From assembly GCA_027603945.1 (NCBI GenBank), contig JADIIU010000021.1:62001-126000 (forward strand): a stretch of 64,000 bases of DNA, in the 5' to 3' direction. This stretch comes from Terramyces sp. JEL0728. Lineage: Eukaryota; Chytridiomycota; Chytridiomycetes; Rhizophydiales; Terramycetaceae. Below, in pieces: positions 1,665 through 54,651 of the stretch (the stretch's first letter is position 1; each line of letters opens with the position of its first letter). A program made the position numbers and the translations under genes. The notes under the pieces were generated by a model. It worked only from the letters and a program-made list of their open reading frames with translations, was not told the DNA's origin and did no database searches.

Positions 1665-1682
1665 CAGATCTTTGAAAAAAAT

Positions 1683-2113: not shown

Positions 2114-2633
2114 TTATATTTTCTTTTTATCAAAATTTGTAAAGTAAAGTGTGGACTGGGACAAAACCATCTTTTTGATTGCATGGTAACCAAGAAATGC
2201 TTCAGCAATCAGGAAAAAGAAATACAGGAGATTATGCGCAAATTCATAAGCAGTCACGAACCCACCACCAAATATTTCTAAATTAACGAATCGTACGCTG
2301 TAAACCAATTAATGCAAACGACAGCACCATCTGCGGAAACACGGTTAATAGAACACAGCCGGCAATATCTGGTGCCCGCTCTTTTAGATTACCAAAGAAT
2401 CCCAAATATAATCTTAGCGGCTCTATTAGTGCGAATAAGTAATATATGATCCATGTTTGAAACCTAGTCCATCCTGACGGATTAAACCAAGTTATTTTCC
2501 AGTCGATTGTAATATATTCTCCGTATAACCAAAATATATACAAGTAGATATTGAAATAAATCAGCACTTGAAACGGCAAGTAACCGTCAATCTCCTGGTC
2601 TACATTAACAGCAATTACCAGAGAAACTTTCAT
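2114..2633 (-). CDS. TMEM17: Transmembrane protein 17, ciliary transition zone (copy 1)
   Basis: Splicing one 19-nt intron (2278-2296) gives 166 residues with four hydrophobic segments. The segment ALIEPLRLYLGFFGNLKERA closely matches the diagnostic TMEM17 motif 'IEAIRLYLGYVGNLQEK', and the C-terminus ends in a TNFDKKKI tail comparable to TMEM17. In animals TMEM17 sits in the Tectonic/MKS complex of the transition zone, gating membrane proteins into the cilium. Its presence implies that the organism builds, or recently built, a flagellum. It converges on the ArsC-like gene (89 bp between stops). Confidence 0.88.
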
Positions 2634-3019
2634 TTAATCTGACTGAAAAGTGCGGAAAGAGATATTTGACAAAGCTCTCCAGTATCGAGTGAGATTTATG
2701 TATCAATTCAATTCCATATTCCTTGATTCTGTTCATCCGAGCGTGTTTTTTTCAAAGTTTGTTTGTCAGGTGTTGTCTGATGTGAAATCAGAGCCGGTAT
2801 GTCTCATTGGTTGCTTCAACAAGGTGTAGGGGAGAATTATTTTATCATAAGCGAGTCTCCATTCCATTGCCTGCGGTGTAATTGGGTCTGCAGTCGTATA
2901 TTACCGCACAGATGGCAATAATATGAGGAATCAAACAATTCGAGCCAACTCAATGGCAGAATGTTCCATGGGCATTGTCGTCAAACCCTTGCAAAAAATT
3001 CATTTTAGCTAATCGAAAA
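2634..3019 (+). other. Intergenic region with a possible decayed small reading frame
   Basis: 386 bp between the divergent TMEM17 and ECM29 start codons. From about 2653 an open frame without an ATG start reads like protein (VRFMYQFNSIFLDSV...). In copy 2 it stays open longer, but here a 2-nt and a 1-nt indel near 2800-2845 change the frame. It could be promoter sequence, part of an unrecognised gene, or a remnant. No RNA gene is seen. Confidence 0.3.
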
Positions 3020-8707: not shown

Positions 8708-8755
8708 AATATATCGATTTAAAACAATATTAGTTGAAGATATTTGGCAGTTTAT

Positions 8756-10547
8756 TCAGAAACGATAGCCCAAGTTTTGGAGTTTGGCATTCGTTACATT
8801 TATGATATTCTCTACTGAAGTGTCTTTGGTGTGAATATTAGAGCAATTAAAGGTCTGCTTGTAACCCATGTTGGCCAATTTCAAAAAAACCAGTTCAGGA
8901 TTGAAAGTTGACATGTCGTTTGGACAATCAGGTATTACAACATTGCCATTTGGTGTTTTATAAATAGAAAAGGCGGATGATTGCCTCTTTAATACCTTTT
9001 CTCGAATTTCTTCTTTGGACGGATATTCCTTGAGAGTTGAAATGGGCTGTTTTTGATCTTCTAGTATATTAGGTTCGGGTGGAAGGATTTCTTTAGGTAT
9101 TTGAGAGCCAGTTGACTCTGTAACCTTTAGTGTTGATGGAGTTTCAAGTTCTATCGTTGCAGTATCTTCAGCGCTAGGATTTCCAGCAACCACAGCAATT
9201 TCATTATCCATGTCTTTGGCAACCTGATCGCTTTTCAGATCATTTTCACTGGATACTTCTTCATAACTGTATTGATCTTCAGATGTGGTTGGTAGAGTTG
9301 AACATTCACTTTCTTCAATAATCGTTTCCATGATGGTTTTGGAAGGAGAGAAACAGTTTAAATCTTCCGTTTGGTAGTACTTGCTTTCATCAAACATTTC
9401 TACATAATTCAAGCTGTCAGGAGAGTCTTCAAACTGATCCTCCACCGAGTAGTTGATTTGCAAAGAAGGGGGACTCTTGATTGGAATCGGGTGGATGATA
9501 TCGGCATGTTCTGATTGATCTGCATAATAATCGGTGATGATTGTTGTGATATTTGATGTTGGAGGTGTGATTTGTACTTTTAATCCAGGGGATTTGCTTG
9601 AAGGACTGGTTAATTCCACCGCTCCCTCCTTTTCAATTGGTAAATCAGATTCAAATTCTTCCGGATTATCCTGCCTAATAACTATTTCTGTTTCAAGCCC
9701 AGCTACTTTCACCATCAGGGCTGAATCAGAACCTACATTTGAAATTTCATGTATATTTTGATTCACTGATTCCTCAATTTCCTGCACAGCAGGATTTTGG
9801 ATACTCTCTACTTTATGATCCAGCTCATCGATACTTTGTTCAACAGGGCTACCTGAATGTAGTGGTTGGTCAACATCTTGATTTTCCAAAATGGCTCCTT
9901 GATTGCTGTACACAAAATCCAGGTTTTCAACAGTTGTATTCGACGAGTCTAAATCTGAATCCTTAGATTCAAGTATGACAGCTGGACTAGTTACTTTATA
10001 GTTTGAATTGATTTCAGCTGGGTTATCCACCGCGTTAATACTTTGCGACAGCTTTGAATTTACATAGTGATCAGAATTTCTACTAGAATTTGAGATTGTT
10101 GAATTCATTGAATTTCTTGACCGCAGCTGTCGATTTCCAAGTAATGGCCCTTGATATCCGTTCTTTTCCGCATTTCTTGAAATTGCAAAAATGCAGTCAA
10201 TTACCTGTATATCAGTTCAGTATTACTTGATTGATATTCTTCTTTTCAAAAAGGTCCACTGTTTGAAATGTTTCGAATGATGACAGACCCAAACTTGGTA
10301 GCGTGTCCAGGAATTTGGAAATATTATCCATTTTCTTGAAAGGCAATGACGAAGATGCATATTTGATGGGTGTGCTGTGAGGAGTTAACGCATTTGAAAG
10401 CTTGCATAGAATAATCCCGTCATTCAGCGCAGTGGCCAAATCCTCCTCGATTGCTATTCCAACGACATTTTCAATCCATTCTCGCGCTTCATTTTCCCTA
10501 ACTATCGACGATTTCAAATCATTTTTGTACAATTCCAAAGGGTTCAT
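8756..10547 (-). CDS. Calponin-homology domain protein with acidic tail (copy 1)
   Basis: 589 residues after removal of one 22-nt intron (10205-10226). Residues 1 to about 130 form a single type-3 calponin-homology domain (transgelin/calponin class): EAREWIENVVG, LNDGIILCKLSNAL, FKKMDNISKFL, VDLFEKKNINQVIDCIFAIS, then YQGPLLG. Such domains bind actin. The remainder is a long, Ser/Glu/Asp-rich, probably disordered stretch, then a short better-conserved C-terminus (ANMGYKQTFNCSNIHTKD). The acidic middle carries many replacements and two compensating three-codon indels between the two copies, so it evolves quickly. The role is probably in the actin cytoskeleton. The exact orthologue is unknown. 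Confidence 0.8.
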
Positions 10548-10660
10548 TGAAGAAATGTTAACTCAAGTTGGCTCTGTTCTGGCGTTTCAGATTACGCCAG
10601 AGATTGGGGCTTGTGGATCAGTGTCAAATATATATCGCCATCTTTTATTAATCAATCGTC

Positions 10661-12193
10661 CTAATCAAAATCAACATAATCTTCTAGCCCAACATATTCG
10701 CCTTCCTCTGACGCGCGAGTAATTCTATTTGAATCTAATATGAACAGGAGTGATATGGCGATCGTATAGAACGAAGCCATAACAAAGAAATAGAATTCTG
10801 GGAAATTCTTTACGGTCAACTGCCAAATATTTGGATATAATATTCCACCAAAAAGTGAGATAATTTGGTCCAAAAACGATATTCCAGAAAATAAAGTCCC
10901 TTGAGATCCAGATGGTACTGATATTGATATTAAAGATCGCAAAGTTGGACCTGCCAAAGTACCAAACCCATCAAACACCGTCAAACCATACAGTACCCCG
11001 GATACTGGGGTGACGGCTTTCCCTATTGTTGAAGTAATAATAATCAGCAATCCAGTCTTGATTAAGGATAATTCCCAGCTTATTTTATCCGGGCCAGCCA
11101 AGTTGCTGGTTTTGCATAGTTTCAGTATTAATGGGTACAGTAAACCCATGTTGACCATCCTGCTGATGGATGATATAAGAACATATTGGCCTGGATTAAA
11201 TAAAATTACCTTCGTCTTGACTGTCCCATCCAAATTTGTAAGAAACAAATTGGAAAAATAGCGTGGACGAATGGGCAAGTGTCATTATTCCATGTACCAC
11301 CAAAAGCAATATGAAAGAAGTAGATTTGGCTTTAGCAAATACATCCACTGCGGATGAAACAATATCTGTAAGAGAATTCACTTCATTTTGTGGGATTTGC
11401 TCAAAATCCAATGATTCTGGCAAAAGGAATATCGCATAGAAAATAACCAAAATTTCGATAATAATGGAGGCAGAGAATACTACTATTGAACCATTATCAA
11501 ATGATCTGAAAATTGCTCCTCCTATCAACGGTCCAAATGCAATCCCTCCAAAGAGAATTGCTTCTCCAACGATAAACGTCTTGCCTCTATTTTCTGCATC
11601 GGAACAGTCAGCAAAATAAGATACAGTTGCATTCATAATGGCTATTACCCCGCCTAGCCATCCTTCAATGAAAGACGCGAGCAACAGTACCCACAAGCCA
11701 TATCCAAATCGGTCTACAGTGATATAAGCCGTAAAGGAAACCAGCGAAGCCGAAAGTGCAATTACAATAATAGGCTTGCGTCCAATGCGATCAGACAAAA
11801 ATCCATATAACGGGCCAACGATAATTGATAATGCAGAGAATATCCTGATGATCATCACCCATCTTACTGCTAATACCTGACATTAATCACACTTACTTGA
11901 ACGTCAGTATTAGTCCTGCACCTGCCCCAATCCATATCCTCATGAATAACCGGTGAATTGTAAAATCCTGGCAAGTAAATTGCGGTGCTATTTACTTGCA
12001 GCATATCTATATGGTCGAATCTAGCACATAGATACAGCATTAGCCACTGTTGGATGATTCCAGAAGTCATGGACATTGCCAGGACGTAGAATAGACCTGG
12101 GATGCATATGTAAAATGGTGACGGCTTCTTTTTGGTTTCAGAATGGATCGAGTTGCTCAAGTTAATTTGCTCCTGGTATAGATCACTTTCCAT
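10661..12193 (-). CDS. MFS transporter, tetracycline-resistance/SLC46-like (copy 1)
   Basis: 497 residues after splicing two introns (20 nt near 11879 with a GTAAGT donor, and 19 nt near 11188). About twelve hydrophobic segments are present, with the MFS loop 2-3 signature GFLSDRIGRKPII and an acidic, cytosolic C-terminus (RASEEGEYVGLEDY). The N-terminal half has a long loop after TM1 (NSTAIYLPGFYNSP) with a possible N-glycosylation site, as in proton-coupled folate transporter-like carriers. The substrate cannot be inferred. It lies on the same strand as the upstream peroxiredoxin gene. Confidence 0.8.
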
Positions 12194-12387
12194 AATTTCC
12201 CTTGGATTTTCTACTATTTATCATTGCGCAGTGACAGATCTGATCACAATGATCAATGCCATCACCGCCATTAAGACATGGAGAGCTTCACGACTCTACT
12301 TAAATGAGACACTGGGTTTTATTTTTTGGGTTTTTTAGAGGAATTGGTTGACGATTCATTCTTGCGTTTGACAGTGGGCGAATAAAC

Positions 12388-13027
12388 CTAGTTAGCCTAA
12401 GATTAAGAGCTTGCATACCTTTTCAAAGTAAGACTTTGAATCCTTGATGTTGTCCTTCATGGTTGCAGCACCCTTCTTCCATCCAGCAGGGCTAAAATTA
12501 AAAGCAACTTACCAAACTTCGCCGTGTTTAGCATGGAATTGAATAGCTTCAACGAGACGGTAAACTTCGTCAATGTTACGGCCGATTGGCAAATCGTTGA
12601 TTTGAGCAACACGAACATTTTGTTTGTCATCAATGATGAAGGTACCGCGAGCAGCCAAGCCAGCATCACCACCTTCTTCAATCAAGACACCGTAATCTCT
12701 AGAGATTTGCTTGGTGACATCAGCAACAAGTGGGATGTGCATTTCTCCGAGCCCACCTTGCTTTCTTGGTTGGTTAATCCAGTTAAAGTGTGAGAATTTA
12801 GAGTCAATGGAAACACCAACAACTTCGGCGTTGATCTTTTTGAATTCGGCAGCCTTTTCGCTGAATGCAATAATTTCGGTTGGGCAAACAAAGGTCCAAT
12901 CCAACGGATAGAAGAACAATACGAGGTATTTACCCTTGTAATCGTCCAATGAGACTTGCTTGAATTCACCGTCAACGACTGCTTGTGCACTGAAGGCTGG
13001 AGCTTTTTGTTGGATTTTGACAACCAT
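12388..13027 (-). CDS. Typical 2-Cys peroxiredoxin (copy 1)
   Basis: A thiol peroxidase of the Tsa1/PRDX1 class that reduces H2O2 with thioredoxin. Two introns (21 nt, and 22 nt at 12397-12418) leave 198 residues. The peroxidatic Cys48 is in [13 protein letters not shown], and the resolving cysteine is at about 172 in VCPAGW. GGLG and a C-terminal YF (SYFEKAN) are present, the pair linked to sensitivity to over-oxidation. ATG 13027 was chosen because the reading frame upstream has no other ATG. If the last intron instead ended at a later AG (31 nt), the protein would gain a basic tail ending SKKPKK. Codon use looks more biased than in neighbours, suggesting high expression. Confidence 0.93.
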
Positions 13028-13115
13028 AGTAGATGACAAACTGAAATTTTTTCCATTCAACTTAAATGCATAATTCACGTGACTATGAAGTAATACTCGA
13101 GAAAATCAGGTTTTA

Positions 13116-14285
13116 TTAGTTGTGGACACTGAATTCTACATTCCATGATCTTCTAATCCAAAGGTATCCTACTTGCAAGTTATGGTCTTCAGTCTTTTTG
13201 CGTTTTAGAGTAGGCATCATTGCACCAGCTTTTGCAGACTGTTGGAGTATAGGAACTTTTTGCCACCAGCAGGCCTTGAATACCTGGCGCTCTAAAACCG
13301 CGTTTTCAATCGATTTAGCGTTATGTGTATCTTCAACTTGTGTGATCATTTCATTTTCTACAGGATCCATTGCTACATCTTCATCAACATGAGCTTCGGT
13401 ATGGACAATGTTGCTAAGGGGAACTATAGAGTAACCAAGGACAGTTTTTTTGTTTGGGACTACAGATCTGTGTCCCCAAGCAGCACCTTCCTCCAAGTAC
13501 TTGTTTTTTCTGAAATACTTGAGCATGGCACCGCATTGGCTATCCATTAGGGTTTCTACTCCCCATTGAACAGCTTCCGCTTGACTGAGAAGAGCGGCTT
13601 TACTTTCCGAAGCTAATTCGTTTGTGGTAAGGTCTGCGTTTTTAGATTTTATCAACACACCCTGAGAAGTGAGAGATTGTGTGGGAGGTTGCTGCACTAT
13701 GTATAATTCCATTTCTTCCTTTAAAATCATGAATTCCTTGGATCCGTTTTCCTCCGATAATTGCGGAAGGCTGCTGCTTTCCTTGAGCATTTCCTTTGAA
13801 ACAAATTCTTTAAAGTACTTGCCCAGGTATTTGAACAATCCAATTTCAGTGTTCATTGACAGTCCTTTTTGAGTAACCAACTCTGCCAATTCAGGGTCGA
13901 ATTTGTCCACCCTTTCAAACAAAGTCTTGAAAGATGGTTCAGCGTCATAAGCATCGATATCTGAAAATTCTGAACTGTTGAATTCAATGGCCATTTGGCT
14001 GCTGTCCTTCAATTGGCTGTTGTGGTCGCTAAGAGTTGACAATGGAACAGGCTGCATATCTTCTGAATCCATTGAACTGAGAGAAGTGAATAAAAGCAAT
14101 TTTACTTCCTGCGCTGTCAAAAATGAAGGTGCTGGAATCCCAAATGGAAATATTTCATTCAAGTATGAAAGTGGGAAAAGTCTGAGGATAGCTAACGAAG
14201 CGACGTAGTAGCAGACTGGGCCCTTCTTTTGATTGGAACCAACAGCATTCATTACCAATAAAACAATGTCCTGTTGTTCTGACAT
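13116..14285 (-). CDS. Unrecognised 389-residue protein (copy 1)
   Basis: A single-exon frame from an ATG, intact in both copies with almost no protein change, so it is a real gene. I do not recognise the family. The N-terminus (DIVLLVMNAVGSNQKKGPV) is moderately hydrophobic. The middle is acidic and rich in Ser. A conserved-looking C-terminal block contains VFKACWWQKVPILQQSAKAG followed by the basic stretch LKRKKTED, a possible nuclear-localisation signal. No signal peptide or clear membrane segment is present. It lies 88 bp upstream of the peroxiredoxin start, on the same strand. Confidence 0.7.
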   Translation of the reverse strand: MSEQQDIVLLVMNAVGSNQKKGPVCYYVASLAILRLFPLSYLNEIFPFGIPAPSFLTAQEVKLLLFTSLSSMDSEDMQPVPLSTLSDHNSQLKDSSQMAIEFNSSEFSDIDAYDAEPSFKTLFERVDKFDPELAELVTQKGLSMNTEIGLFKYLGKYFKEFVSKEMLKESSSLPQLSEENGSKEFMILKEEMELYIVQQPPTQSLTSQGVLIKSKNADLTTNELASESKAALLSQAEAVQWGVETLMDSQCGAMLKYFRKNKYLEEGAAWGHRSVVPNKKTVLGYSIVPLSNIVHTEAHVDEDVAMDPVENEMITQVEDTHNAKSIENAVLERQVFKACWWQKVPILQQSAKAGAMMPTLKRKKTEDHNLQVGYLWIRRSWNVEFSVHN

Positions 14286-19432: not shown

Positions 19433-20750
19433 TTAAAACAATTTCTTTGTCTCTGGACCTCCTAAACTATTACTTCGTTTCATTCCTACACCGCCTAACG
19501 TATTCCCAAACAAACTGGTATTCAAAGTTGGCACAGCAGCTGCCGGTTTGGTATTTAGCGAAAACGCAGGTTTTGCATCAGGCGGTTTGTTGAATAGGGA
19601 CTGAGCACCAAATTGAGATTGATTCATCTGTTGTGGGGCGGGTTGTTGCACAGTTGGCTGGAGATACTGTGCTAATTGCGAGTAGGACTCTCTATTATTT
19701 TCTGGGACAATGCTGCCATAATACATTTCATGGAACTGTATATACGTATCTTTTGCTTTAGTAATAGAGTCATGCACTTGCGCAACTTTTCCTGCAATTG
19801 ACATAAACGATTGATATTGATTCTTTATAATTTCTTGAATAACTTCATTAATTCAAATTACCTGTTGCATTGATCTTTGAAGAATGCGAGCTACGCAAAT
19901 TTAATTCCAACTCTTCTATATTTTGTCTACATTGGTTCATTCTCATTTCCAAATCGGCAGTGAAATTCAAGAAATAACTATTGTTAATTATATATACTTT
20001 GAATATGCGTCATTAGTCTGGATTCCCTTGTTGAAATCATTTGTTGGGGAGGACTCAATAAATCTGGCTACTAAATCGGAATTTCTTAGTTCATTGGCAA
20101 CTAGACTCTTCAATTGGTCAATCACATACACATCTCTTTGTAATATTGTCTTTAATCCGCTCAGTTTCTGCTATTAACACAAATTACTCTTGCCGTCTCT
20201 TCAGTTTCTTTAACAATTTCCTCCAGATCAGTTTCCAAAGTAAGATTTGCAATTGATGTTGATACATTAGTCTGCGAGTTTATAAATTTATCGATTGTAT
20301 CTAACTGCGCTTGGATATCTGCAGGAAGTTCCGAGTACTTTGTTGTAAGAGTAATACTAAATTAGCTGGTTATTACGGTGCCTGTGCATTTTGAGTTTGT
20401 CCAAATCCGGTTTGTCCAGTACCTTTTTGGCCAAACATCCCTCCAGCAGCTGGTTGAGTAGTGTTTGTATTATTTTGTGCAAATAAACTATTATTTGGCT
20501 GGTTTGTGTTACTATTTTGACCAAACATTCCTCCAGCAGCTGGTTGAGCAGCAGTGTTTCCAAACATTCCTCCAGCAGCTGGTTGAGTAGCAGTGTTTCC
20601 AAACATTCCTCCAGCAGGTTGTGCTGATTGCGCGTTTGCACCAAACCCACCAGTATTTTGCTGGTTCTGTTGTCCAAATCCAAATGTATTCTGAGCAGGC
20701 TGTCCAAATCCAGAAGGTTGATTTTGATTTTGCTGGCCAAATCCAAACAT
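19433..20750 (-). CDS. NUP58: FG nucleoporin, Nup58/Nup49 type (copy 2)
   Basis: Same structure and four introns as the gene at 344-1664; spliced length 412 residues. It differs by one codon lost in the C-terminal TKPA(T)AAVP stretch and several replacements in the FG region (for example SLFAQ in place of SLFGQ, and GGMFGQ in place of GAMFGQ). All splice sites are kept and the frame is open. Start codon at 20750, 18 bp from the divergent ArsC-like gene. Confidence 0.85.
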
Positions 20751-20768
20751 CAGATCTTTGAAAAAAAT

Positions 20769-21110
20769 ATGAGATTTCTTCTGTTGCAAAAACCTACTTG
20801 TTCCAAGTGCAAAACCGTCCTCGCTTTCTTGAATGAAAAGATTCCTAATCAGTTTGAAGCCATTGATTACACCACCAATTTATTGCAAAAAGAAAAGATC
20901 CTTGAAGTGTTGAAATTGATGGGAAAAGAAGACCTGGACCTAGTATTCAGAAAGGATGAATATAAAGGACAAGTACCTACAGAATTGGATGCATTGGCTA
21001 CATTGCTTCAAGACCCGGCGATTATGCAGAGACCAATTCTGGTTGACTATGAAAAGAAAAGAGCTGTGGTGGGAAGACCACTAGAAAGAATCTATGACTG
21101 GTTTAAATAA
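20769..21110 (+). CDS. ArsC/Spx-like thioredoxin-fold protein (copy 2)
   Basis: 113 residues, identical in protein to the copy at 1683-2024 as far as I can read, with only silent changes. CxxC at Cys11/Cys14 and Arg61, Arg88 and Arg103 are all kept. It shares a very short divergent promoter with the nucleoporin gene. Confidence 0.8.
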   Translation: MRFLLLQKPTCSKCKTVLAFLNEKIPNQFEAIDYTTNLLQKEKILEVLKLMGKEDLDLVFRKDEYKGQVPTELDALATLLQDPAIMQRPILVDYEKKRAVVGRPLERIYDWFK

Positions 21111-21186
21111 ATCCCAGAGCCCTTGTTATAACCTCTGTGACGAATCTTTCATCAACCCCACTGTCTCATTTTGCAACAGAAAGAGC

Positions 21187-21706
21187 TTATATTTTCTTTT
21201 TATCAAAATTTGTAAAGTAAAGTGTGGACTGGGACAAAACCATCTTTTTGATTGCATGGTAACCAAGAAATGCTTCAGCAATCAGGAAAAAGAAATACAG
21301 GAGATTATGCGCAAATTCATAAGCAGTCACGAACCCACCACCAAATATTTCTAAATTAACGAATCGTACGCTGTAAACCAATTAATGCAAACGACAGCAC
21401 CATTTGCGGAAACACGGTTAATAGAACACAGCCGGCAATATCTGGTGCTCGCTCTTTTAGATTACCAAAGAATCCCAAATATAATCTTAGCGGCTCTATT
21501 AGTGCGAATAAGTAATATATGATCCATGTTTGAAACCTAGTCCATCCTGACGGATTAAACCAAGTTATTTTCCAGTCGATTGTAATATATTCTCCGTATA
21601 ACCAAAATATATACAAGTAGATATTGAAATAAATCAGCACTTGAAATGGCAAGTAACCGTCAATCTCCTGGTCTACATTAACAGCAATTACCAGAGAAAC
21701 TTTCAT
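21187..21706 (-). CDS. TMEM17: Transmembrane protein 17, ciliary transition zone (copy 2)
   Basis: 166 residues after splicing the same 19-nt intron. The protein appears identical to the copy at 2114-2633, with silent substitutions only. The gap to the ArsC-like stop is shorter than in copy 1 because of intergenic deletions around 21165-21185. Confidence 0.88.
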
Positions 21707-22089
21707 TTAATCTGACTGAAAAGTGCGGAAAGAGATATTTGACAAAGCTCTCCAGTACCGAGTGAGATTTATGTATCAATTCAATTCCATATTCCTTGAT
21801 TCTGTTCATCCGAGCGTGTTTTTTTCAAAGTTTGTTTGTCAGGTGTTGTCTGATGTGAAATCAGAGCCGGTATGTCATTGGTTGCTTCAACAAGGTGTAA
21901 GGGAGAATTATTTATCATAAGCGAGTCTCCATTCTATTGCCTGCAGTGTAATTGGGTCTGCAGTCGTATATTACCGCACAGATGGCAATAATATGAGGAA
22001 TCAAACAATTCGAGTCAACTCAATGGCAGAATGTTCCATGGGCATTGTCGTCAAACCCTTGCAAAAAATTCATTTTAGCTAATCAAAAA
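21707..22089 (+). other. Intergenic region upstream of ECM29 (copy 2)
   Basis: 383 bp. Here the protein-like open frame that starts without an ATG at about 21723 (KEIFDKALQYRVRFMYQF...) runs to 21920. If a 27-nt GT-AG segment at about 21896 were removed, it could continue almost to the ECM29 start. The equivalent in copy 1 is frame-shifted. I do not recognise the product. It may equally be non-coding. Confidence 0.3.
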
Positions 22090-25000
22090 ATGGAAAAAGA
22101 AATTGGTATCTAAATAATAATCCAAGAATTGCTTGAAAAAGTAGAATTACGATTGGCTTTAGCTTCGGATGAAAGCGCTTTTGAACAGCAGATAATGAAT
22201 CTGCTCTGTCCAATCTTGGCAAAACTCGATAGCCCTCATCCGCAAGTAAAGAAGAAGGCGATGGAAGTTTGTACTCACATCAATAGGAGATTGAATTCGG
22301 GGAATATCGGTTTACCATTGGACAAACTTGTGGAGTTCTATCATACAAGTGGACAGACTTCAAGGGCATTCGCAATCATTTATCTTAAGAAAGGATTCTT
22401 GAAATTAAATGAATCTGTAACTAATTTTAATTCAGGATCAATTGCTTAAACTACCGGATTTGATTAAAGGAATTTCTAAAAAACCAGTTCAGCAGCAGAT
22501 GGTATTATTTTCAATTGCATTGCCAATACTTGCAAATTACACTACAGTATTTGCTGAAAAGCATTCAATTAGATTTGAAGATGCGGATGTGAAATACTTG
22601 GTTTCAAAGTTTTTGGATTTCATTTTGTATGCAGTGCCACAATCTGGTAGAAAAATGACTGCTTTAAACGCTGCGGAATTGTAATTTTTATTAATCACAG
22701 GGCCGCATTACCTCCAATATCACCATTAGATGTAGTACCACCAGGATTATCAAAAAATGCAGTAAATTTCATTACCAACAATGTAACTGCTGACTGGACA
22801 ATGAATTCGACTGCAGTTAAAGACTTGAAAGTTGGAATTGCGAAATTCTTGATGATTGAACCAATTGTCGCAAAAGATTCTTTGCTGATTGAAAAGTTTC
22901 TTGTTTTCCTGGTAGCTTCAGTAGACACATTTCACGAAGTTCAGTTTGTTGGGGAAGACGGTTTAAGAAGATATGCCAAGCCAGATATGGACAATGATTA
23001 CCTCATAAATAGATTATATTTATTGTATCTGGGACACAGCGATCCACAAGACCAAAGTACTTTTGAATTAATAATAGACGCATCCCGGTTGTCAGCTAGC
23101 GTACTACTTAAAAATCGAATTATTGATTATTTACTGAAATCAGTTCTAGCAGCAAACAAGATTCCCTTCATGATTAATATGACCTTTGATGCTTTGTATA
23201 ATCCTGCATCCACATCAAAATTGCGATCGAATGGAATGGCGTTTGTACATTGGATGGCCAAAATGACAAAGAGCGAAATAATGAAGCCAATCGCAAAAGT
23301 GCTGATTGATGGAATTTCAAAGTTACTGGATGAACAGCACGACCCAGCATTGGAAAATATCAGAGGCTTGACTTATGAATCTATTGGAATGATCTCAATG
23401 AAAGGTTATTATTATTAATCCAAGTGCCAGAAATGTTTCAAAGTGATTTGGGTATATTGAAAAAGTTCTTTGATGCCATTCCATTTGAATCGCCAAATGT
23501 TCGAGTGTCTTTGCAAGATGCGCTAGTTTCATTATTGTCTGCGTACAAAGGAATCTCTCCCGAATTGAAAAAGGAGTTGCACTTGATTTTACTCGACAAT
23601 ATAGATAGACCAGAGCATCAGTCAAGATACGTTGCTTTAAAGTATGCGATCGAAATTTATGATTTCGCCGACCCAATTGCAAGATATATTTCACTATTAG
23701 CAGCAGCAGATAGCAAACTGGAGATCAGAGAATTGTCTTTTAAAGGACTAGAGTTGCCACCTAAAGACTCGATGGAAACAATCACCAGCGAATTCTTGGC
23801 AGACTTGGTGGAATGCATCCAAACCTTTTCTAGCAAAAGAAGCGTTAAAGCAAATTCTGCAGCTGGTATTTCTTGGATTGGCAACCTGACTATATCCACT
23901 TTTTCATTCGTCCTTGCGTTTTTAAGACAAGTGCTATTTAGAGTATTGGATTGCGATTTAGATCTGGGAAAAATCTCTATTGATTCAAGTGAGAGAGAAA
24001 ATATATCCTCAAGCAAGAGGCTATTGGAAGGGCTATCATCCCTATGGCAAAATCCCGACTCACAGAAAGGCTTGAAAGGGTATATCGGTTACTTGGAAAA
24101 AGCACTGGATTCGAAAGAAGCAGGTAGTCTATGCTAATATAGACGGTCTATTACTGTCATTGGCCGCTTCAAATTTGCTGGAACTCATCTCCATTTCTCC
24201 AGAAGAAATTTCTAAATCATTTGAATCAAAAATTAATTGGGCGGATGTAAATTGTGCTAATGTAGAATTTTCTAAAAAGTCCAAAGTACGAAACAAGAAT
24301 TTCGATGGCACACATTATCGGTATATTATCCACTGCAGGGCTGAATTCGCTTGACAAGCAAGCAGAATTCAAAAATCGAATTAGCAAATATGTTTCGGTG
24401 GCAAATGATTTGTCAAAAAATGTAGTTATTTATTTGATGTAGAATGTTGAATATCGCCATGGATCGATCGCAGTCCTAGGGTATAGCATTGGAAGACTAG
24501 TCTACCGACTTTCAACGAAATCCCAGGCTATCATAAGCGACAACGAATTGCTGCAGATCTTGGAAACAATACTTGCTGCACTACGATCGGACAATGTGTC
24601 ACTTATACTTGGCAGCTCTATTTCAATTGCCGAAATGGGAAGATATGGCACATTCGACAACCCCGATGAAAAGTTAAAATCAGTGCTGCGACAATTCCAA
24701 GAAAAACTAACAGAGCTGATCAAATCAAAAGAACCCAAGGTGCAAGAAATGGCAATCTTCTCGATAAGTCACTTGGGTTTAGCAACTGATTTCATATTGA
24801 AACCAGTCCTAGATCTTATCTTGACTTTACCGAGTTTATTAGCAAAACATGTAGAATTACAATTCAACATTGGTGAGGCTATTTGCTCCTTATTATTTAA
24901 ATTTGAATCCTTGAATATGGTGCACTATTTGGATATCGCAGATGTTATATTCCCACCTAAAGAAGTTTCTGTTTTCAAATTGAATGAGGAATTGCTAGAC

Positions 25001-27777
25001 GAATACATGAACAAAATCTTTGCGCTTGTTGCACCTTCTCAAAACGCAATCAATAAGAAAGCAGGCTGCATCTGGTTGCTTTGTATCACCAAATACGGAA
25101 AAAATACTCCATACATCCAAAAGAAGCTCTTGCAATTGCACCAAAACTTTTCTGAATTGCTCAACGACAAGGATGGTAAAATCAGCTAATATTAGATTTC
25201 ACTCAGGAAATAGCGTCAAAAGGGATTGGGCTAATTTACGAAATCGGAGATGCAGCAATGAAAAAAGAATTGGTGTCATCTCTCGTTTCTACATTTACTG
25301 CAGGCAAGAAATTAGTGCCGCAGAGTGTTTCTGCAACAACAGAGCTCTTACCAAACACTGCATTAGGCGGTACTCCTGATGGATCAAACATTAGCACTTA
25401 CCAAGATATTTTATCCTTGGCTGCAGATATGAACCAGTAACTATTATTGACACAGACCCGATTTGGTGTATAAATTCATGTCGCTTGCGTCCCATCACGC
25501 AATTTGGAATTCCAGAAGAGGTGCAAGTTTAGGGTTTAGTTCTATTGCATTACAAGCAGAAAAAGATTTGGAACCAATCCTGCCGTCACTCGTACCCAGA
25601 TTATATCGTTATTCTTTTGATCCACATCCAAAAACAGCCCAAGGTACAGAAAATTTAAGACAGGTATGAAAAATATCTGGAACTCGTTGGTAAAAGAACC
25701 AGCAAAGACTGTCGACAAGTACTTTGTTGAAATAATGAACGAGGTACTAAAAGGAATGGGAGATCGTATGTGGCGAACTAGAGAAGCCAGTACAGCAGCG
25801 TTGACAGATTTACTCAATGGCAAGAAGATAGAACAGCTCGAGCCGTTCATGAAAGAGTTATGGACAATGTCATTCAGGGCTCTGGATGATATCAAAGAGT
25901 CGGTCCGCAAAGCAGCATTCCTGGCGGCTAAAACATTAATGAATATTACAGTTAGGTACTGTGATCCAGTTTACCATTCCCCAAGCAAAGGACAAAAAAT
26001 TATGGACGACATGATGCCGTTCTTATTGCAAAAAGGATTGGTAAACAATTCAGAAGAGGTGCGTGCTTATTCCCTTTCCACAATTTTAAAACTCACCAAA
26101 ACTGGTGGCATATTGCTGAAACCACATATTGTTGAATTGGTTTGTACGTTGATGGAATCTCTCAGTAGTTTAGAACCACAATCAATGAGTAGCTATTGTT
26201 AACATAGATTATCTTGCATTCCACGCTACCTCATATAATATCACTCAGCATGACTTGGACACTTCCCGCATGTCGGCTGCAAAAAGCTCCCCTATCATGG
26301 AAGCCATTGACAGATGTGTTCCGTTTATTGATGAAAGCATTTTGGCTGACTTATCGCCAAAACTTGCGATAATTGTAAGGAAGGGAGTGGGGCTGCCAAC
26401 TAGAGCTGGGGCTGCGAGGTTTGTTTATACCCTGGTACAAAGTGCACCTAATGAATTGCGACCAGTTTCCGAGCCATTGATTAAAGCTCTATCGGTTGCG
26501 ATTTATGATAGGTCGCCCGTAGTTAGAAAGTCATTTTCAACTGCATTTGGGTATCTTGCCAAACTGGTAGAGTTTTCAGTTTTGGAAAAGATTATTAATC
26601 AAATTAATGCAAAGTATTTAGAAGCAAATGACGAAGAAGGCCGTATGGTTGCACCAATTACTTACTTGGAAATCTCTAGACATTCCCCAACCGCAATACA
26701 AGATTTCCACGGACTAATTATCCCGTTAGCATTTATGGGCAGCAGGGACAAGACTCAGTTGACAATATCGGAGGTTTGGAAGAATTTGTGGGATGAAAAC
26801 ACTGGTGGATCTAGTTTAGCCATCAAGAAATGGAAATTAGAGATATTTGAATCTTGTAAATCGATTTTGGTGACTAATCCATCCTGGGATATGAAAAGGC
26901 AAGTAGGAAAAGCGCTTGTTGATTTTGCAAAGTCTCTGGGTGGAGATATTGTGGAACTTATGCCGTCATGTCTCTCCCTCTTAGCCGACGCACTTGGTGG
27001 ACGAACATGGGCCGGAAAGGAAGCATTGCTGGAGGCCCTGATGACTGTTTGTATATCAGGAAAAGAGTACTTTGCTAACTGCCCCAGCGATCGTAAAAAG
27101 ATTGAAGATATTTTCATTCGGGAGGCTCAAAAGAAAAACATGCAATACAAACGGTTCAGCATCGAATATATGGGAAATACATTTGATGAATTAGATTGCA
27201 ATCGATTCAGCGATGTGTTTGAATTCCTGGCAAACTGTGCCGAAGAAAAAGATGTGGATATGGACGATGATGTGGATGAAAGCATTAGCAAACCTCTAAT
27301 TTTAGCAATAAGGGCTATTGCTTTTAAATCAGTTGGGGGATGTTTCCCAGTGGTAGATTTCGGTAATATTGAACCTAATCATAGCTGATTTTGTTGCACC
27401 GGTAGGTGAATTATTGGAAAGAAACCTCATCAACAACATTTGGAATATTCGAGTTAGCGTTCTCGACTCTTTGAAGAGCACTTTTGAAAAGGTCGGTACT
27501 TTAAAGCCGTTCCCTGATCAAATACTGCACAAAATCATTAGAGGACTGATCCAATGTCTGGATGATGGCAAAGTAATACTGCTTTAATTTAGTTCAAAGT
27601 TGTGCGAGAACATGCCGCCAACCTTTTATTTGAAATTTGCAAAAAAGGTGATTGTTACTAATTCAAGATCCACTGCTAACCAGCTTTGCAAAAACTCCAT
27701 TAAGGCCATATGCAGAAAATGAACGCGATGGATCCATACAGGCAGTATTGCAAAACACTTTCAATTTATTTGATTAA
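22090..27777 (+). CDS. ECM29: Proteasome adapter and scaffold protein ECM29 (copy 2)
   Basis: Second full-length ECM29, again 1802 residues after 14 introns of 19-22 nt at matching positions. About 16-20 amino-acid replacements separate it from copy 1, scattered and mostly conservative (for example MVRYLD to MVHYLD, LLATADS to [16 protein letters not shown] to GGCFPVVDF). No stop or frameshift was found, so both copies could be expressed. Confidence 0.95.
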
Positions 27778-27811
27778 AATATATCGATTTAAGCAATATT
27801 TGGCAGTTTAT

Positions 27812-29603
27812 TCAGAAACGATAGCCCAAGTTTTGGAGTTTGGCATTCGTTACATTTATGATATTCTCTACTGAAGTGTCTTTGGTGTGAATATTAGAGC
27901 AATTAAAGGTCTGCTTGTAACCCATGTTGGCCAATTTCAAAAAAACCAGTTCAGGATTGAAAGTTGACATGTCGTTTGGACAATCAGGTATTACAACATT
28001 GCCATTTGGTGTTTTATAAATAGAAAAGGCGGATGATTGCCTCTTTAATACCTTTTCTCGAATTTCTTCTTTGGACGGATATTCCTTGAGAGTTGAAATG
28101 GGCTGTTTTTGATCTTCTAGTATATTAGGTTCGGGTGGAAGGATTTCTTTAGGTATTTGAGAGCCAGTTGACTCTGTAACCTTTAGTGTTGATAAATTTT
28201 CAAGTTCTATCGTTGCAGTGTCTTGTTTAGCTTCAGCACTAGGATTTCCAGCAACCACAGCAATTTCATTATCTATGTCTTTGGCAACCTGATCGCTTTT
28301 CAGATCATTTTCACTGGATACTTCTTCATAACTGTATTGATCTTCAGATGTGGTTGGTAGTGTTGAACATTCACTTTCTTCAATAATCGTTTCCATGATG
28401 GTTTTGGAAGGAGAGAAACAGTTTAAATCTTCCGTTTGGTAGTACTTGCTTTCATCAAACATTTCTACATAGTTCAAGCTGTCAGGAGAGTCTTCAAACT
28501 GCTCCTCCACCGAGTAATTGATTTGCAAAGAAGGGGGACTCTTGATTGGAATCGGGTGGATGATATCGGCATGTTCTGGTTGATCTGCATAATAATCGGT
28601 GATGATTGTTGTGATATTTGATGTTGGAGGTGTGATTTGTACTTTTAATCCAGGGGATTTGCTTGAAGGACTGGTTAATTCCATCTTTTCAATTGGCAAA
28701 TCAGATTCAAATTCTTCCGGATTATCCTGCCTAACAACTATTTCTGTTTCAGGCCCAGCTACTTTCACCATCAGGACTGAATCTGAATCTACATTTGAAA
28801 TTTCATGTATATTTTGATCCACTGATTCCTCAATTTCCTGCACAGCAGGATTTTGGATACTCTCTACTTTACGATCCAGCTCATCGATACTTTGTTCAAC
28901 AGGGCTACCCGAATGTAGTGGTTGGTCAACATCTTGATTTTGCAAAATGGCTCCTTGATTGCTGTACACAAAATCCAGGTTTTCAACAGTTGTATTCGAC
29001 GAGTCTAAATCTGAATCCTTAGATTCAAGCATGACAGCTGGACTAGTTGCTTTATAGTTTGAATTGATTTCAGCTGGATTATCCACCGCGTTAATACTTT
29101 GCGACAGCTTTGAATTTACATAGTGATCAGAATTTCTACTGGAATTTGAGATTGTTGAATTCATTGAATTTCTTGACCGCAGCTGTCGATTTCCAAGTAA
29201 TGGCCCTTGATATCCGTTCTTTTCCGCATTTCTTGAAATTGCAAAAATGCAGTCAATTACCTGTATATCAGTTCAGTATTACTTGATTGATATTCTTCTT
29301 TTCAAAAAGGTCCACTGTTTGAAATGTTTCGAACGATGACAGACCCAAGCTTGGTAGCGTGTCCAGGAATTTGGAAATATTATCCATTTTCTTGAAAGGC
29401 AATGACGAAGATGCATATTTGATGGGTGTGCTGTGAGGAGTTAACGCATTTGAAAGCTTGCATAGAATAATCCCGTCATTCAGCGCAGTAGCCAAATCCT
29501 CCTCGATTGCTATTCCAACGACATTTTCAATCCATTCTCGCGCTTCATTTTCCCTAACTATCGACGATTTCAAATCATTTTTGTACAATTCCAAAGGGTT
29601 CAT
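27812..29603 (-). CDS. Calponin-homology domain protein with acidic tail (copy 2)
   Basis: 589 residues with one 22-nt intron. The CH domain is unchanged relative to copy 1. The acidic middle differs by many replacements, a three-codon loss (EKMELT against EKEGAVELT) and a three-codon gain (EAKQDTATIELE against EDTATIELE), leaving total length equal. This is the fastest-evolving coding stretch in the duplicated block. Confidence 0.8.
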
Positions 29604-29716
29604 TGAAGAAATGCTAACTCAAGTTGGCTCTGTTCTGGCGTTTCAGATTACGCCAGAGATTGGGGCTTGTGGATCAGTGTCAAATATATATCGCCATCTT
29701 TTATTAATCAATCGTC

Positions 29717-31249
29717 CTAATCAAAATCAGCATAATCTTCTAGCCCAACATATTCGCTTTCCTCTGACGCGCGAGTAATTCTATTTGAATCTAATATGAA
29801 CAGGAGCGATATGGCGATCGTATAGAACGAAGCCATAACAAAGAAATAGAATTCTGGGAAATTCTTTACGGTCAGCTGCCAAATATTTGGATATAATATT
29901 CCACCAAAAAGTGAGATAATTTGGTCCAAAAACGATATTCCAGAAAATAAAGTCCCTTGAGATCCAGATGGTACTGATATTGATATCAAAGATCGCAAAG
30001 TTGGACCTGCCAAAGTACCAAACCCATCAAACACCGTCAAACCATACAGTACCCCGGATACTGGGGTGACGGCTTTCCCTATTGTTGAAGTAATAATAAT
30101 CAGTAATCCAGTCTTGATTAAGGATAATTCCCAGCTTATTTTATCCGGTCCAGCCAAGTTGCTGGTTTTGCATAGTTTCAGTATTAATGGGTACAGCAAA
30201 CCCATGTTGACCATCCTGCTGATGGATGATATAAGAACATATTGGCCTGGATTAAATAAAATTACCTTCGTCTTGACTGTCCCATCCAAATTTGTAAGAA
30301 ACAAATTGGAAAAATAGCGTGGACGAATGGGCAAGTGTCATTATTCCATGTACCACCAAAAGCAATATGAAAGAGGTAGATTTGGCTTTAGCAAATACAT
30401 CCACTGCAGATGAAACAATATCTGTAAGAGAATTCACTTCATTTTGTGGGATTTGCTCAAAATCCAATGATTCTGGCAAGAGGAATATCGCATAGAAAAT
30501 AACCAAAATTTCGATAATAATGGAGGCAGAGAATACTACTATTGAACCATTATCAAATGATCTGAAAATTGCTCCTCCTATCAACGGCCCAAATGCAATC
30601 CCTCCAAAGAGAATTGCTTCTCCAACGATAAACGTCTTGCCTCTATTTTCTGCATCGGAACAGTCAGCAAAATAAGATACAGTTGCATTCATAATGGCTA
30701 TTACCCCGCCTAGCCATCCTTCAATGAAAGACGCGAGCAACAGTACCCACAAGCCATATCCAAATCGGTCTACAGTGATATAAGCCGTAAAGGAAACCAG
30801 CGAAGCCGAAAGTGCAATTACAATAATAGGCTTGCGTCCAATGCGATCAGACAAAAATCCATATACCGGGCCAACGATAATTGATAATGCAGAGAATATC
30901 CTGATGATCATCACCCATCTTACTGCTAATACCTGACATTAATCACACTTACTTGAACGTCAGTATTAGTCCTGCACCTGCCCCAATCCATATCCCCGTG
31001 AATAACTGGTGAATTGTAAAATCCTGGCAAGTAAATTGCGGTGCTATTTACTTGCAGCATATCTATATGGTCGAATCTAGCACATAGATACAGCATTAGC
31101 CACTGTTGGATGATTCCAGAAGTCATGGACATTGCCAGGACGTAGAATAGACCTGGGATGCATATGTAAAATGGCGACGGCTTCTTTTTGGTTTCAGAAT
31201 GGATCGAGTTGCTCAGGTTAATTTGCTCCTGGTATAGATCACTTTCCAT
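29717..31249 (-). CDS. MFS transporter, tetracycline-resistance/SLC46-like (copy 2)
   Basis: 497 residues after splicing the same two introns. It differs from copy 1 by few replacements (PLYGF to PVYGF next to the DRIGRKP loop, VIHED to VIHGD in the first extracellular loop, EEGEY to EESEY near the C-terminus). Open throughout. Confidence 0.8.
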
Positions 31250-31443
31250 AATTTCCCTTGGATTTTCTACTATTTATCACCGCGCAGTGACAGATCTGAT
31301 CACAATGATCAATGCCATCACCGCCATTAAGACATGGAGAGCTTCACGACTCTACTTAAATGAGACACTGGGTTTTATTTTTTTGGTTTTTTAGAGGAAT
31401 TGGTTGACGATTCATTCTTGCGTTTGACAGTGGGCGAATAAAC

Positions 31444-32083
31444 CTAGTTAGCCTAAGATTAAGAGCTTGCATACCTTTTCAAAGTAAGACTTTGAATCCT
31501 TGATGTTGTCCTTCATGGTTGCACCACCCTTCTTCCATCCAGCAGGGCTAAAATTAAAAGCAACTTACCAAACTTCGCCGTGTTTAGCATGGAATTGAAT
31601 AGCTTCAACGAGACGGTAAACTTCGTCAATGTTACGGCCGATTGGCAAATCGTTGATTTGAGCAACACGAACATTTTGTTTGTCATCAATGATAAAGGTA
31701 CCGCGAGCAGCCAAGCCAGCATCACCACCTTCTTCAATCAAGACACCGTAATCTCTAGAGATTTGCTTGGTGACATCAGCAACAAGTGGGATGTGCATTT
31801 CTCCGAGCCCACCTTGCTTTCTTGGTTGGTTAATCCAGTTAAAGTGTGAGAATTTAGAGTCAATGGAAACACCAACAACTTCGGCGTTGATCTTTTTGAA
31901 TTCGGCTGCCTTTTCGCTGAATGCAATAATTTCGGTTGGGCAAACAAAGGTCCAATCCAACGGATAGAAGAACAATACGAGGTATTTACCCTTGTAATCG
32001 TCCAATGAGACTTGCTTGAATTCACCGTCAACGACTGCTTGTGCACTGAAGGCTGGAGCTTTTTGTTGGATTTTGACAACCAT
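31444..32083 (-). CDS. Typical 2-Cys peroxiredoxin (copy 2)
   Basis: 198 residues with the same two introns. One replacement relative to copy 1 was seen (KKGAATM to KKGGATM, after the resolving cysteine). Peroxidatic Cys48, resolving Cys172, GGLG and YF are kept. The possible alternative basic tail beyond the last intron is also kept here, differing only by a silent change (CCC/CCA Pro). Confidence 0.93.
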
Positions 32084-32171
32084 AGTAGATGACAAACTGA
32101 AATTTTTTCCATTCAACTTAAATGCATAATTCACGTGACTATGAAGTGATACTCGAGAAAATCAGGTTTTA

Positions 32172-33341
32172 TTAGTTGTGGACACTGAATTCTACATTCC
32201 ATGATCTTCTAATCCAAAGGTATCCTACTTGCAAGTTATGGTCTTCAGTCTTTTTGCGTTTTAGGGTAGGCATCATTGCACCAGCTTTTGCAGACTGTTG
32301 GAGTATAGGAACTTTTTGCCACCAGCAGGCCTTGAATACCTGGCGCTCTAAAACCGCGTTTTCAATCGATTTAGCATTATGTGTATCTTCAACTTGTGTG
32401 ATCATTTCATTTTCTACAGGATCCATTGCTACATCTTCATCAACATGGGCTTCAGTATGAACAATGTTGCTAAGGGGAACTATAGAGTAACCAAGGACAG
32501 TTTTTTTGTTTGGGACTACAGATCTGTGTCCCCAAGCAGCACCTTCTTCCAAGTACTTGTTTTTTCTGAAATACTTGAGCATGGCACCGCATTGGCTATC
32601 CATTAGGGTTTCTACTCCCCATTGAACGGCTTCCGCTTGACTGAGAAGAGCGGCTTTACTTTCCGAAGCTAATTCGTTTGTGGTAAGGTCTGCGTTTTTA
32701 GATTTTATCAACACACCCTGAGAAGTGAGAGATTGTGTGGGAGGTTGCTGCACTATGTATAACTCCATTTCTTCCTTTAAAATCATGAATTCCTTGGATC
32801 CGTTTTCCTCCGATAATTGCGGAAGGCTGCTGCTTTCCTTGAGCATTTCCTTTGAAACAAATTCTTTAAAGTACTTGCCCAGGTATTTGAACAATCCAAT
32901 TTCAGTGTTCATTGACAGTCCTTTTTGAGTAACCAACTCTGCCAATTCAGGGTCGAATTTGTCCACCCTTTCAAACAAAGTCTTGAAAGATGGTTCAGCG
33001 TCATAAGCATCGATATCTGAAAATTCTGAACTGTTGAATTCAACGGCCATTTGGCTGCTGTCCTTCAATTGGCTGTTGTGGTCGCTAAGAGTTGACAACG
33101 GAACAGGCTGCATATCTTCTGAATCCATTGAACTGAGAGAAGTGAATAAAAGCAATTTTACTTCCTGCGCTGTCAAAAATGAAGGTGCTGGAATCCCAAA
33201 TGGAAATATTTCATTCAAGTATGAAAGTGGGAAAAGTCTGAGGATAGCTAACGAAGCGACGTAGTAGCAGACTGGGCCCTTCTTTTGATTGGAACCAACA
33301 GCATTCATTACCAATAAAACAATGTCCTGTTGCTCTGACAT
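32172..33341 (-). CDS. Unrecognised 389-residue protein (copy 2)
   Basis: Same single-exon gene as 13116-14285, with one replacement seen (MAIEF to MAVEF) and otherwise silent changes. That pattern indicates constraint on the protein. Function unknown. Confidence 0.7.
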   Translation of the reverse strand: MSEQQDIVLLVMNAVGSNQKKGPVCYYVASLAILRLFPLSYLNEIFPFGIPAPSFLTAQEVKLLLFTSLSSMDSEDMQPVPLSTLSDHNSQLKDSSQMAVEFNSSEFSDIDAYDAEPSFKTLFERVDKFDPELAELVTQKGLSMNTEIGLFKYLGKYFKEFVSKEMLKESSSLPQLSEENGSKEFMILKEEMELYIVQQPPTQSLTSQGVLIKSKNADLTTNELASESKAALLSQAEAVQWGVETLMDSQCGAMLKYFRKNKYLEEGAAWGHRSVVPNKKTVLGYSIVPLSNIVHTEAHVDEDVAMDPVENEMITQVEDTHNAKSIENAVLERQVFKACWWQKVPILQQSAKAGAMMPTLKRKKTEDHNLQVGYLWIRRSWNVEFSVHN

Positions 33342-51991: not shown

Positions 51992-54651
51992 TTATTCCGT
52001 TTGAATCCAGGCGACATCATAGTAATTTAGATAAAAGGACGTCGCAAGTTTTAAACCTGTGGTGTCGAAAGGGCTATCACTACCAAAAAAGTCGGCCGTT
52101 GGCTTCCAAACTGAATCTAGATATTCCCTGAATAATGGCATTAATTTTTTATAGCTTATATCCCAGTCTTCTTTTGCATTTGGCGACAGGTCAAAGATAT
52201 CCTGCTTTGAATATCCTTTAATCATGCGCAACCATATCAAGAAGGTGTTAGTAACTCCTAGCGATAAATCACAATCGATAGAGAGATCGCTTTTCTCCAA
52301 TAGCCGTATATCCCTGTATAACCTGGAAGGCGATAAATCATGTGCCAATAACTGATCTCTTTCCAGTGAAGATCCAATAGTATGTATGCAATCCACAAGA
52401 TTGGGCTGGATTGTACCAGATTGGAATCGTACAGCATCACTTAGGAGGAACATTGTAACCTGCATACGCTTCGCACTGATGCTTGTCGCATTATCAAAAT
52501 TAACGGGATTGCTTGCTCCTACAATTGACGCAATGACATGTCTTTGTTCAGTTAATAATGAAGATGCTAGGAGCGACGATCCAACCCACTGTAATATTCT
52601 ACATTCAAATACTTGCCAAATTGCAAGCAATAGCGGCAATCCAACAGCCAATAATATCGAATTTGGATTGTCCGATACAATATCTTTAATGATTTTCGAT
52701 AGTACCGGTTGAAAAAGAGAAGACGATTTCAAAAGTGCGTGGTTGGTTGTTTCTTCTTGGACCAAAATTGCACCAGAGTGCGTTTTAACTAACGGAATAG
52801 CTCCAATGCTATCAGCGGACCAAGAAATAGGAGGATTGATCTTGGTGGGGGCAAGGGCAGTAACGTATTCCGGCGAATCAAGCACGGCTTTGATGAATTT
52901 CTTTGTTTCTTGTGGATGGGCCAAGAATATGCGCTTGCAAATGATATTCATGATGATACTGAGGATTTTCAGCTTTTTTGATAATATCTGGTTCGCTCTG
53001 ACTGGCTTGATGGTGGTAAGTTTGATTTTTTCCAAAGTATGAAACACCGAAGTAATCCAGCCAAAAGATTTTTGGCCAAATAGCAACGATGGTAACGAAT
53101 CAGTGCTGTTATTTTCTTTAGTAAACATAATGTTCACTGGCTTTTCCCCAAAGGTCTGGAAGGCAATGTTTAGTGAAAGTACTGGCTCAACAGAGCTTTC
53201 AGCATTAATGGCATCTTCAAAGTAGAACATCGATGGTGCTTTTTTCGCGGATTCGTCCATATGAAGGTTTGAAAGCTGTGATTGCAGTTGATTGGCAGCA
53301 AGATATTCAATTACAGCAGACTAAGTCAGTAATGCTCTACCTGATTAATACGGGCTGTTTCAATCATATAGGTCACACATTCATTGATAGCATGTGGAGG
53401 GGCTCCAGCTATAATTAGAAAGATTCCTACCAGCTATTGCAATGTTTCTTGCATGAAGCGACATATGGCCTCTTTGAATTCCTTCAGTTGCTAGCGCTCT
53501 CAAGGCAGCAAAGTTTTGAGCCAAACCAATGCATACCATTGATAATGCCAACTCTTTTGAATTCGGACGACCCATCAATCCAAGAGCCAGTTGATATGTC
53601 GGGTTAGTTTTCAGCACACCTCCAGCTGTTCCAACAGTAATCGGTAATTCAAGTGTGCCAACGAGATGGTTTTCGCCGTTAATTTCTTCAATGGAATACT
53701 CTGTCAGTGGTTTATACCCGCCTTCGCTCTTCAGGCTCGCCCAGGAATGGCATGCAGCTTCAATTGCTCTCCAATCTTGCCCTGTTGCTAGTGCCACAGC
53801 ATCAATTCCATTCATGATACCTTTGTTGTGAGTAACAGCCCTATACGGATCATCTACTGCCCAATCAAACGCTTCCACGATTCTTTTTGCGACTTCCTGT
53901 CCGGTGTACCCTTTATATCCCAGCTGCGACACAGGTATTTCAAAACGAGCTGCACTGATGCGTTCAGATGCCAAATTCGACACTATCCTGAACCCTATCC
54001 GACAGCCAGTTAGTTGCGCCAAGTAAGGAGCCATCCCTTCAGCTACCGTACTTGCGCAGTTGGCACCCATTGCATCGCACACATCCAGATGAAAGTGAAC
54101 AACAACCCAAGAATTTGACATTGAATGGGTCTTTGATTTCTTTATCTGGCGGATTGATAAATCTACCACTCCGCCTCCTCTATTAAGCATCGTCTTGCAG
54201 AATTCATTTGATTGGTTAATTAAAATACTTTTTTTCAAATTTAACTGGGATTAACAACAATTACAATTTCAATTGCACTTTCCAATTTTTCATCCGGAAT
54301 ATCTAACAGCTGAACTTGAGCAAATATAATATTTCGTTTTGGCGAGCTTCCAATAAATCCTCCACATGCAGATATTAATTTAGATGCCCCAGAAACTGCC
54401 GCGACTACAGAGGGTTCTTCAACCACCATAGGTATCACTGTCGGCTTTGAATTGATTACCGTATTCAAAGCTAACCCTAGGGGCAACCCAGTGATCCCAA
54501 TGCAATTTTCAATCATATTATTCGCTTGTTCTTCCTCTAAAATTTTGAATTCCTGATTTTCCATTATTTGCGGAAAAGATAGCTGGATTTGCGACTGTCT
54601 CTCTTTTAAGGATTTTCTATAGAATCCAGACCAAATTGATGTTGAAGACAT
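51992..54651 (-). CDS. Class II HMG-CoA reductase fused to an unknown C-terminal region
   Basis: HMG-CoA reductase of the bacterial/archaeal class II, with no membrane domain. Residues 1 to about 430 show AGxN-terminal SGFYRKSLKER, MIENCIGITGLPLGLALN (class II ENVIG motif), MVVEEPSVVAA (catalytic Glu), DAMGANCASTVAEGMAP (Asp), NPTYQLALGLMG and GHMSLHARNIAIAAGA (His). Introns of 20 (54245-54264), 22 (53409-53430) and 20 nt (53321-53340) keep one frame. The last joins directly to a further 430 or so residues, giving 865 in all, with no family I know. If that last intron is retained, the reductase ends six residues later (VEHY stop) and the downstream part could start at ATG 53260. A classical eukaryotic class I enzyme would have looked different. 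Confidence 0.85.

Follow-up and report, generated by a model that had tools for sequence, protein, structure and literature searches.

The locus lies on the minus strand of the window, that is, the whole stretch of 64,000 nucleotides of Terramyces sp. JEL0728 DNA analyzed here, and consists of four exons (54651-54265, 54244-53431, 53408-53341 and 53320-51992) which, when spliced, read in frame through 865 codons to a stop. The three introns are short and all of the GT..AG type: intron 1 (54264-54245, 20 nt, GTAATTGTTGTTAATCCCAG), intron 2 (53430-53409, 22 nt) and intron 3 (53340-53321, 20 nt, GTAGAGCATTACTGACTTAG). Exon 1 encodes amino acids 1-129, including the EEPS motif with E79; exon 2 runs from residue 130 to inside codon 401 and carries K270, D286 and H389; the 68 nt of exon 3 encode a piece of the C-terminal region of the reductase, and exon 4 encodes amino acids 424-865 and the stop codon, comprising the C-terminal end of the reductase, a linker and a C-terminal domain (51992..53236, minus strand) that extends from residue 452 (PSMFYFE) to residue 865. 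A deposited protein, HDV01_003173, which is an annotation and not a cDNA and carries the name "hypothetical protein", agrees with the spliced product at all 865 positions. Thus, the in-frame fusion of a reductase to a long downstream region across the 20-nt intron at 53321-53340, proposed in an earlier note on this DNA, was recovered in full; that intron was borne out as well, although it was the only one named there and the gene has three. Judging from the sequence, the product is a single 865-residue protein in which a class II HMG-CoA reductase (HMGR) is followed by a C-terminal domain.

The assignment of this eukaryotic reductase to class II agrees with the earlier note. The model for the class II, degradative enzymes (TIGR00532) matched residues 1-443 with 338.1 bits (cut-off 259.95), whereas the class I model (TIGR00533) failed with 35.5 bits against a cut-off of 441.8, so that class I is excluded by the model scores, and the class II motifs ENCIG, EEPSVVAA and GANCASTVAEG are all present in the protein. 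PF00368 was the sole Pfam domain found in the 865 amino acids, and judging from Pfam the protein appears to lack membrane segments. Residues E79, K270, D286 and H389 align with E83, K267, D283 and H381 of the P. mevalonii enzyme (chain 1qax), which we take to be the catalytic Glu, Lys, Asp and His of the class II motifs. The Terramyces protein therefore resembles the P. mevalonii type (TIGR00532) in its catalytic domain and four catalytic residues, and differs from it in the additional 414-aa C-terminal domain and in having Cys145 at the position aligned with Asp146. As the latter is presumably the NAD-specifying residue, a preference for NADH cannot be assumed. For the HMGR of Ruegeria, D154 is reported as the determinant of cofactor preference (PMC12292504). 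The genome encodes a second HMGR, of class I, on contig C2 (around 135700-138900), in which membrane segments resembling a sterol-sensing domain were recognized by eye. Class I reductases with such a domain share the reaction with the protein described here, which in contrast is of class II, contains PF00368 only and bears its extra domain at the C-terminus.

Short introns are frequent in this DNA. Searching positions 1-64000 on both strands, we counted 46 20-nt GT..AG candidates with a branch-like motif, compared to 11.0 ± 2.8 in 20 dinucleotide shuffles, a figure in which some candidates are counted twice because of a duplication (about 19 kb) within the window. Candidates of 19 and 22 nt were also far above the dinucleotide shuffles, with those of 21 nt less raised (20 versus 9.4). 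Five junctions were tested in the gene for the class I HMGR on contig C2 and in the flavoprotein gene next to it. Removing an intron of 19 or 21 nt restored four of them; for the fifth no short intron was found, only a 47-nt candidate. Introns of 19-22 nt thus appear to be the norm in this genome, a local rule read from the sequence. Introns this short would be unusual as a genome norm in a fungus, and no report of such a norm was found in the titles and abstract starts of the literature matches listed.

Intron 3 sits between RINQ (residue 423) and SAVIEYLAANQL. Reading through it yields a 427-aa product ending in ...ARINQVEHY, which matches the stop after VEHY noted earlier and keeps the four catalytic residues, and it had been suggested that retention of the intron acts as a toggle, giving the reductase alone in one state and the fusion in the other. 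This suggestion was not supported, and the end of the reductase lies beyond intron 3, which follows residue 423. The matches to solved class II reductases extend to residues 427-432 in six of 12 PDB sequences, and unfused relatives finish in a stretch similar to SAVIEYLAANQL (e.g., KEYLEAKRLLEKI in Globomyces P0009), so the stretch after intron 3 is still reductase and the cut would precede the end of the reductase homology. Moreover, the Boothiomyces protein models read through RINQ|SAVIEYLAANQL without a break, and in each of the eight aligned relatives the two sides of the junction are contiguous (protein models, not cDNA). Retention of the other introns would truncate the protein too, at 136 aa for intron 1 and at 416 aa for introns 2 and 3 together, and short introns are the rule here. 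Intron 3 has no feature that would set it apart as a switch, and we regard such a toggle as very improbable. As a separate observation, the protein P0003 from Boothiomyces JEL0838 contains seven extra residues (GTVVLTV) exactly at the position of intron 2, which suggests, from the sequence of the model, that its gene model keeps an in-frame short intron at this site.

A search admitting proteins of about 476-1514 residues found eight proteins with the C-terminal domain, all of them with PF00368: the deposited copy, two from Boothiomyces, one each from Phlyctochytrium, Dinochytrium and Blastocladiella emersonii, and two other rows. Further carriers were the Chytridiales protein P0038 and the rows P0049 and P0044, with the first part of the domain also present in P0048 from Blyttiomyces and in the row P0054. 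In all 13 carriers the domain comes after a complete or partial class II reductase, and no free copy was found among proteins of about 476-1514 residues. The genome of Terramyces itself gave a single match to the domain. In prokaryotes, none of 47 candidate stretches from 84,980 genomes, searched with two short patterns, contained it, which is a weak negative. Relatives of Mortierella, the Glomeromycota, the oomycete and the EukProt row have gene models without the domain, and a class II HMGR can therefore do without it. The domain is also missing from the gene models of Globomyces P0009, Catenaria P0011 and Blastocladiella britannica P0017, whether through loss or through truncated gene models.

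To place the reductase part, the 120 top-ranked relatives out of 8000 that were scored were combined with the eight domain-bearing proteins (128 rows). In a quick tree, 56 rows were split from the 72 others with an SH-aLRT of 100. The 56 rows take in the named fungal rows, the oomycete Bremia and one EukProt row, whose code "Sdes" we take to stand for Sphaerothecum destruens, whereas the named members of the 72 are bacterial. When 40 of the 56 rows, several of them metagenomic, were set against 80 named prokaryotes (the best 80 of 589 confirmed), all 40 fell on one side of a branch, again with an SH-aLRT of 100. The class II gene was present in chytrids, Blastocladiomycota, Mortierella relatives and Glomeromycota. 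These trees comprise homologues of this reductase with class I rows left out. As the rows containing eukaryotes lie on one side of the branch, the class II gene has a long history in this clade and is no private import of Terramyces; any transfer, if there was one, would be old, and a bacterial origin, considered likely in the earlier note, would in that case not be recent. A recent horizontal transfer was ruled out by the one-sided branch of 40 rows and by a more careful tree of 47 rows. The latter consisted of 39 of the 56 clade rows and eight bacterial ones, P0004 and 16 others being left out, and its domain carriers included members of the chytrid clade as well as Blastocladiella. With carriers on both sides, the fusion dates from no later than the split between chytrids and Blastocladiella, if it was a single event. 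P0044 and P0054 were placed outside the fungi in the best tree, and a constraint grouping them with fungi was not rejected (p-AU 0.209); given these two sequences, the fusion is perhaps pre-fungal.

Comparison of the domain with Pfam, NCBIfam and PDB sequences, both as a single sequence and as a profile, gave no match of weight, and Pfam searches with eight domain members returned only four unrelated matches with E-values of 0.06 or worse, each in one of the eight. A profile comparison by hhalign, which took in bacterial terpene synthases as the sole subfamily, was likewise negative. PF19086, used as a source of comparison sequences, was detected in 0 of 4 and 7 of 80 genomes, and from 13 loci 11 frames bearing the NSE motif were kept, two of them identical, so that 10 were used; the comparison yielded Prob 0.1 and E 0.64, and 12 column shuffles did no worse (Prob 0.0-0.4). 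Structure models, on the other hand, matched proteins of the isoprenoid synthase fold. Two models, built from overlapping shallow alignments of 10 and 12 rows, gave best Foldseek E-values of 0.047 and 0.022, none being below 0.02, with 234-291 aligned residues and 4-12% identity among the listed rows, which include the N-prenyltransferases DabA and DsKabA. The Z-scores at rank 50 were 13.9 and 13.1, against a stated background for helical models that reaches 13, and the absence of other families from these lists is no evidence against those families. In the exon-4 model the pLDDT falls below 50 over residues 151-202, and the predicted model opens with three strands. These models suggest that the C-terminal domain has the isoprenoid (terpenoid) synthase alpha-fold. 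Its earlier description as an unknown region still holds for the sequence libraries, none of which recognizes it, but no longer for the fold, which is predicted to be that of isoprenoid synthases. A diverged GHMP kinase was also considered as the C-terminal domain and rejected, there being no Pfam GHMP match and a different predicted fold.

Compared with class I terpene synthases and trans-prenyl synthases, the Terramyces domain is alike in predicted fold and lacks a shared DDxxD, a strict NSE motif and a Pfam match. DDxxD-like strings occurred in two of 11 aligned domain rows, at different columns and with no column in common, DxxxD at one column in at most three of the 11, and the strict NSE motif (NSE/DTE) in none. 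Among the 11 bacterial PF19086 frames, eight had a DDxxD-like string; their NSE count provides no independent control, since the frames were kept for having the motif. By contrast with these metal motifs, an acidic pair, E743-x7-D751 (52337..52363, minus strand), is found at one column in 10 of 11 rows, with E in 11 of 11 and D in all 10 rows with a letter there, and R531, N533, K541, S544 and E743 are among the residues invariant in the 11 rows. In P0001, a broken helix at 698-721 (R708 and FLLxD718, each in 10/11) is followed by a helix with E743 that ends at D751. The order is similar in terpene synthases, where helices G1/G2 are followed by helix H, which carries the NSE motif with an equal i, i+8 spacing. 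From this spacing, we infer that in the model E743 and D751 sit at the NSE position on helix H.

The reading we favor, tentatively and with slightly less than even confidence, is that of a class II HMGR carrying a domain of isoprenoid-synthase fold which most likely binds a prenyl diphosphate and adjusts the reductase. Such a domain would no longer ionize prenyl diphosphates in the standard way and would keep the pocket, the conserved acidic pair and the conserved Arg, Asn and Lys; it would bind a downstream prenyl diphosphate, most likely FPP or GGPP, which in turn would tune the reductase, so that the domain would serve this HMGR as the membrane sterol-sensing domain serves class I reductases. 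A passage of a 2026 review describes the regulation of yeast Hmg2 by GGPP via its membrane domain (PMC13412983), hence prenyl-diphosphate control of HMGR is known in principle in fungi; a review passage speaks against allosteric control of fungal HMGR. A broader proposal, which we consider possible but doubtful, is that the domain represents a new family with the isoprenoid synthase fold, whose members would act as receptors for prenyl diphosphates and not as catalysts. Their joining to a soluble class II HMGR would date back at least to the common ancestor of chytrids and Blastocladiomycota, perhaps further in view of P0044 and P0054, and they would give HMGR a second form of isoprenoid feedback, one that needs no membrane.

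The same fold is compatible with an active, non-canonical enzyme of prenyl transfer or cyclization, which would place two pathway steps in one protein. The N-prenyltransferases DabA and DsKabA among the fold matches point in this direction, as do the pathway fusions that exist around class II HMGR in bacterial rows with GHMP kinase domains (P0055, P0122), the GHMP kinase family being the one that takes in mevalonate kinase. Against catalysis speak the scattered DDxxD-like strings and the lack of a strict NSE motif in the 11 domain rows; furthermore, several reactions separate HMGR from the terpene or prenyl synthase step, which makes direct channelling unlikely. We therefore regard an active enzyme as unlikely. 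The missing metal motifs would suit a structural or oligomerization module that has its fold from an isoprenoid synthase and binds no isoprenoid, and the large, variable inserts that the domain contains in Phlyctochytrium, Dinochytrium and Blastocladiella could be taken in the same sense; the invariant polar and charged residues (R531, N533, K541, S544 and E743) fit a binding site better than a scaffold, and such a module seems to us rather unlikely.

It is also conceivable, though quite improbable in our judgment, that the fold match reflects a generic resemblance between helical bundles and that the domain is of another or a new fold. The negative sequence-profile tests, the best Foldseek E-values of 0.047 and 0.022, the rank-50 Z-scores near the stated background for helical models and the three opening strands would all be in line with this.

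Class II HMGR is portrayed as predominantly or mostly bacterial in two 2026 reviews, whose passages on the subject do not mention fungal class II enzymes (PMC13412983, PMC13001223). In our trees, many fungi outside the Dikarya share a single old class II clade, and the enzyme of zoosporic fungi is extended by a conserved domain whose predicted fold is that of enzymes using the products of the pathway. No HMGR with such a domain was found in the titles and abstract starts, mostly for part of the matches, of the open-licence literature, and by the structure models the enzyme that controls the pathway appears to carry a previously unrecognized domain of terpene-synthase-like type. Should this domain sense or process prenyl diphosphates, the protein would be a testable example of pathway control that is built in and independent of membranes, and terpenoid engineering would gain a naturally fused HMGR.

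Other class II HMGRs with added C-terminal domains were encountered among the relatives. P0052, P0055, P0122 and similar rows are bacterial proteins of about 750 aa in which a class II HMGR is fused to GHMP kinase domains, and they cluster in the tree; they are like the Terramyces protein in having an added C-terminal domain, and differ in the partner and in lying on the other side of the tree. In P0051 from the oomycete Bremia lactucae, the class II HMGR is joined to a 4'-phosphopantetheinyl transferase (PPTase) domain (PF01648) and has no terpene-synthase-like domain, so that here too a C-terminal domain is added and the partner differs.

Finally, a block of about 12.7 kb is present twice in the window (1542-14285 and 20628-33341), with an offset of about 19.06-19.09 kb and 98.5% identity; either the block was recently duplicated in tandem or the assembly has joined two haplotypes. 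On contig C26, two squalene/phytoene synthase matches with equal scores (64502-64987 and 110689-111174) lie 46 kb apart and may be another instance of local copies that are almost identical.
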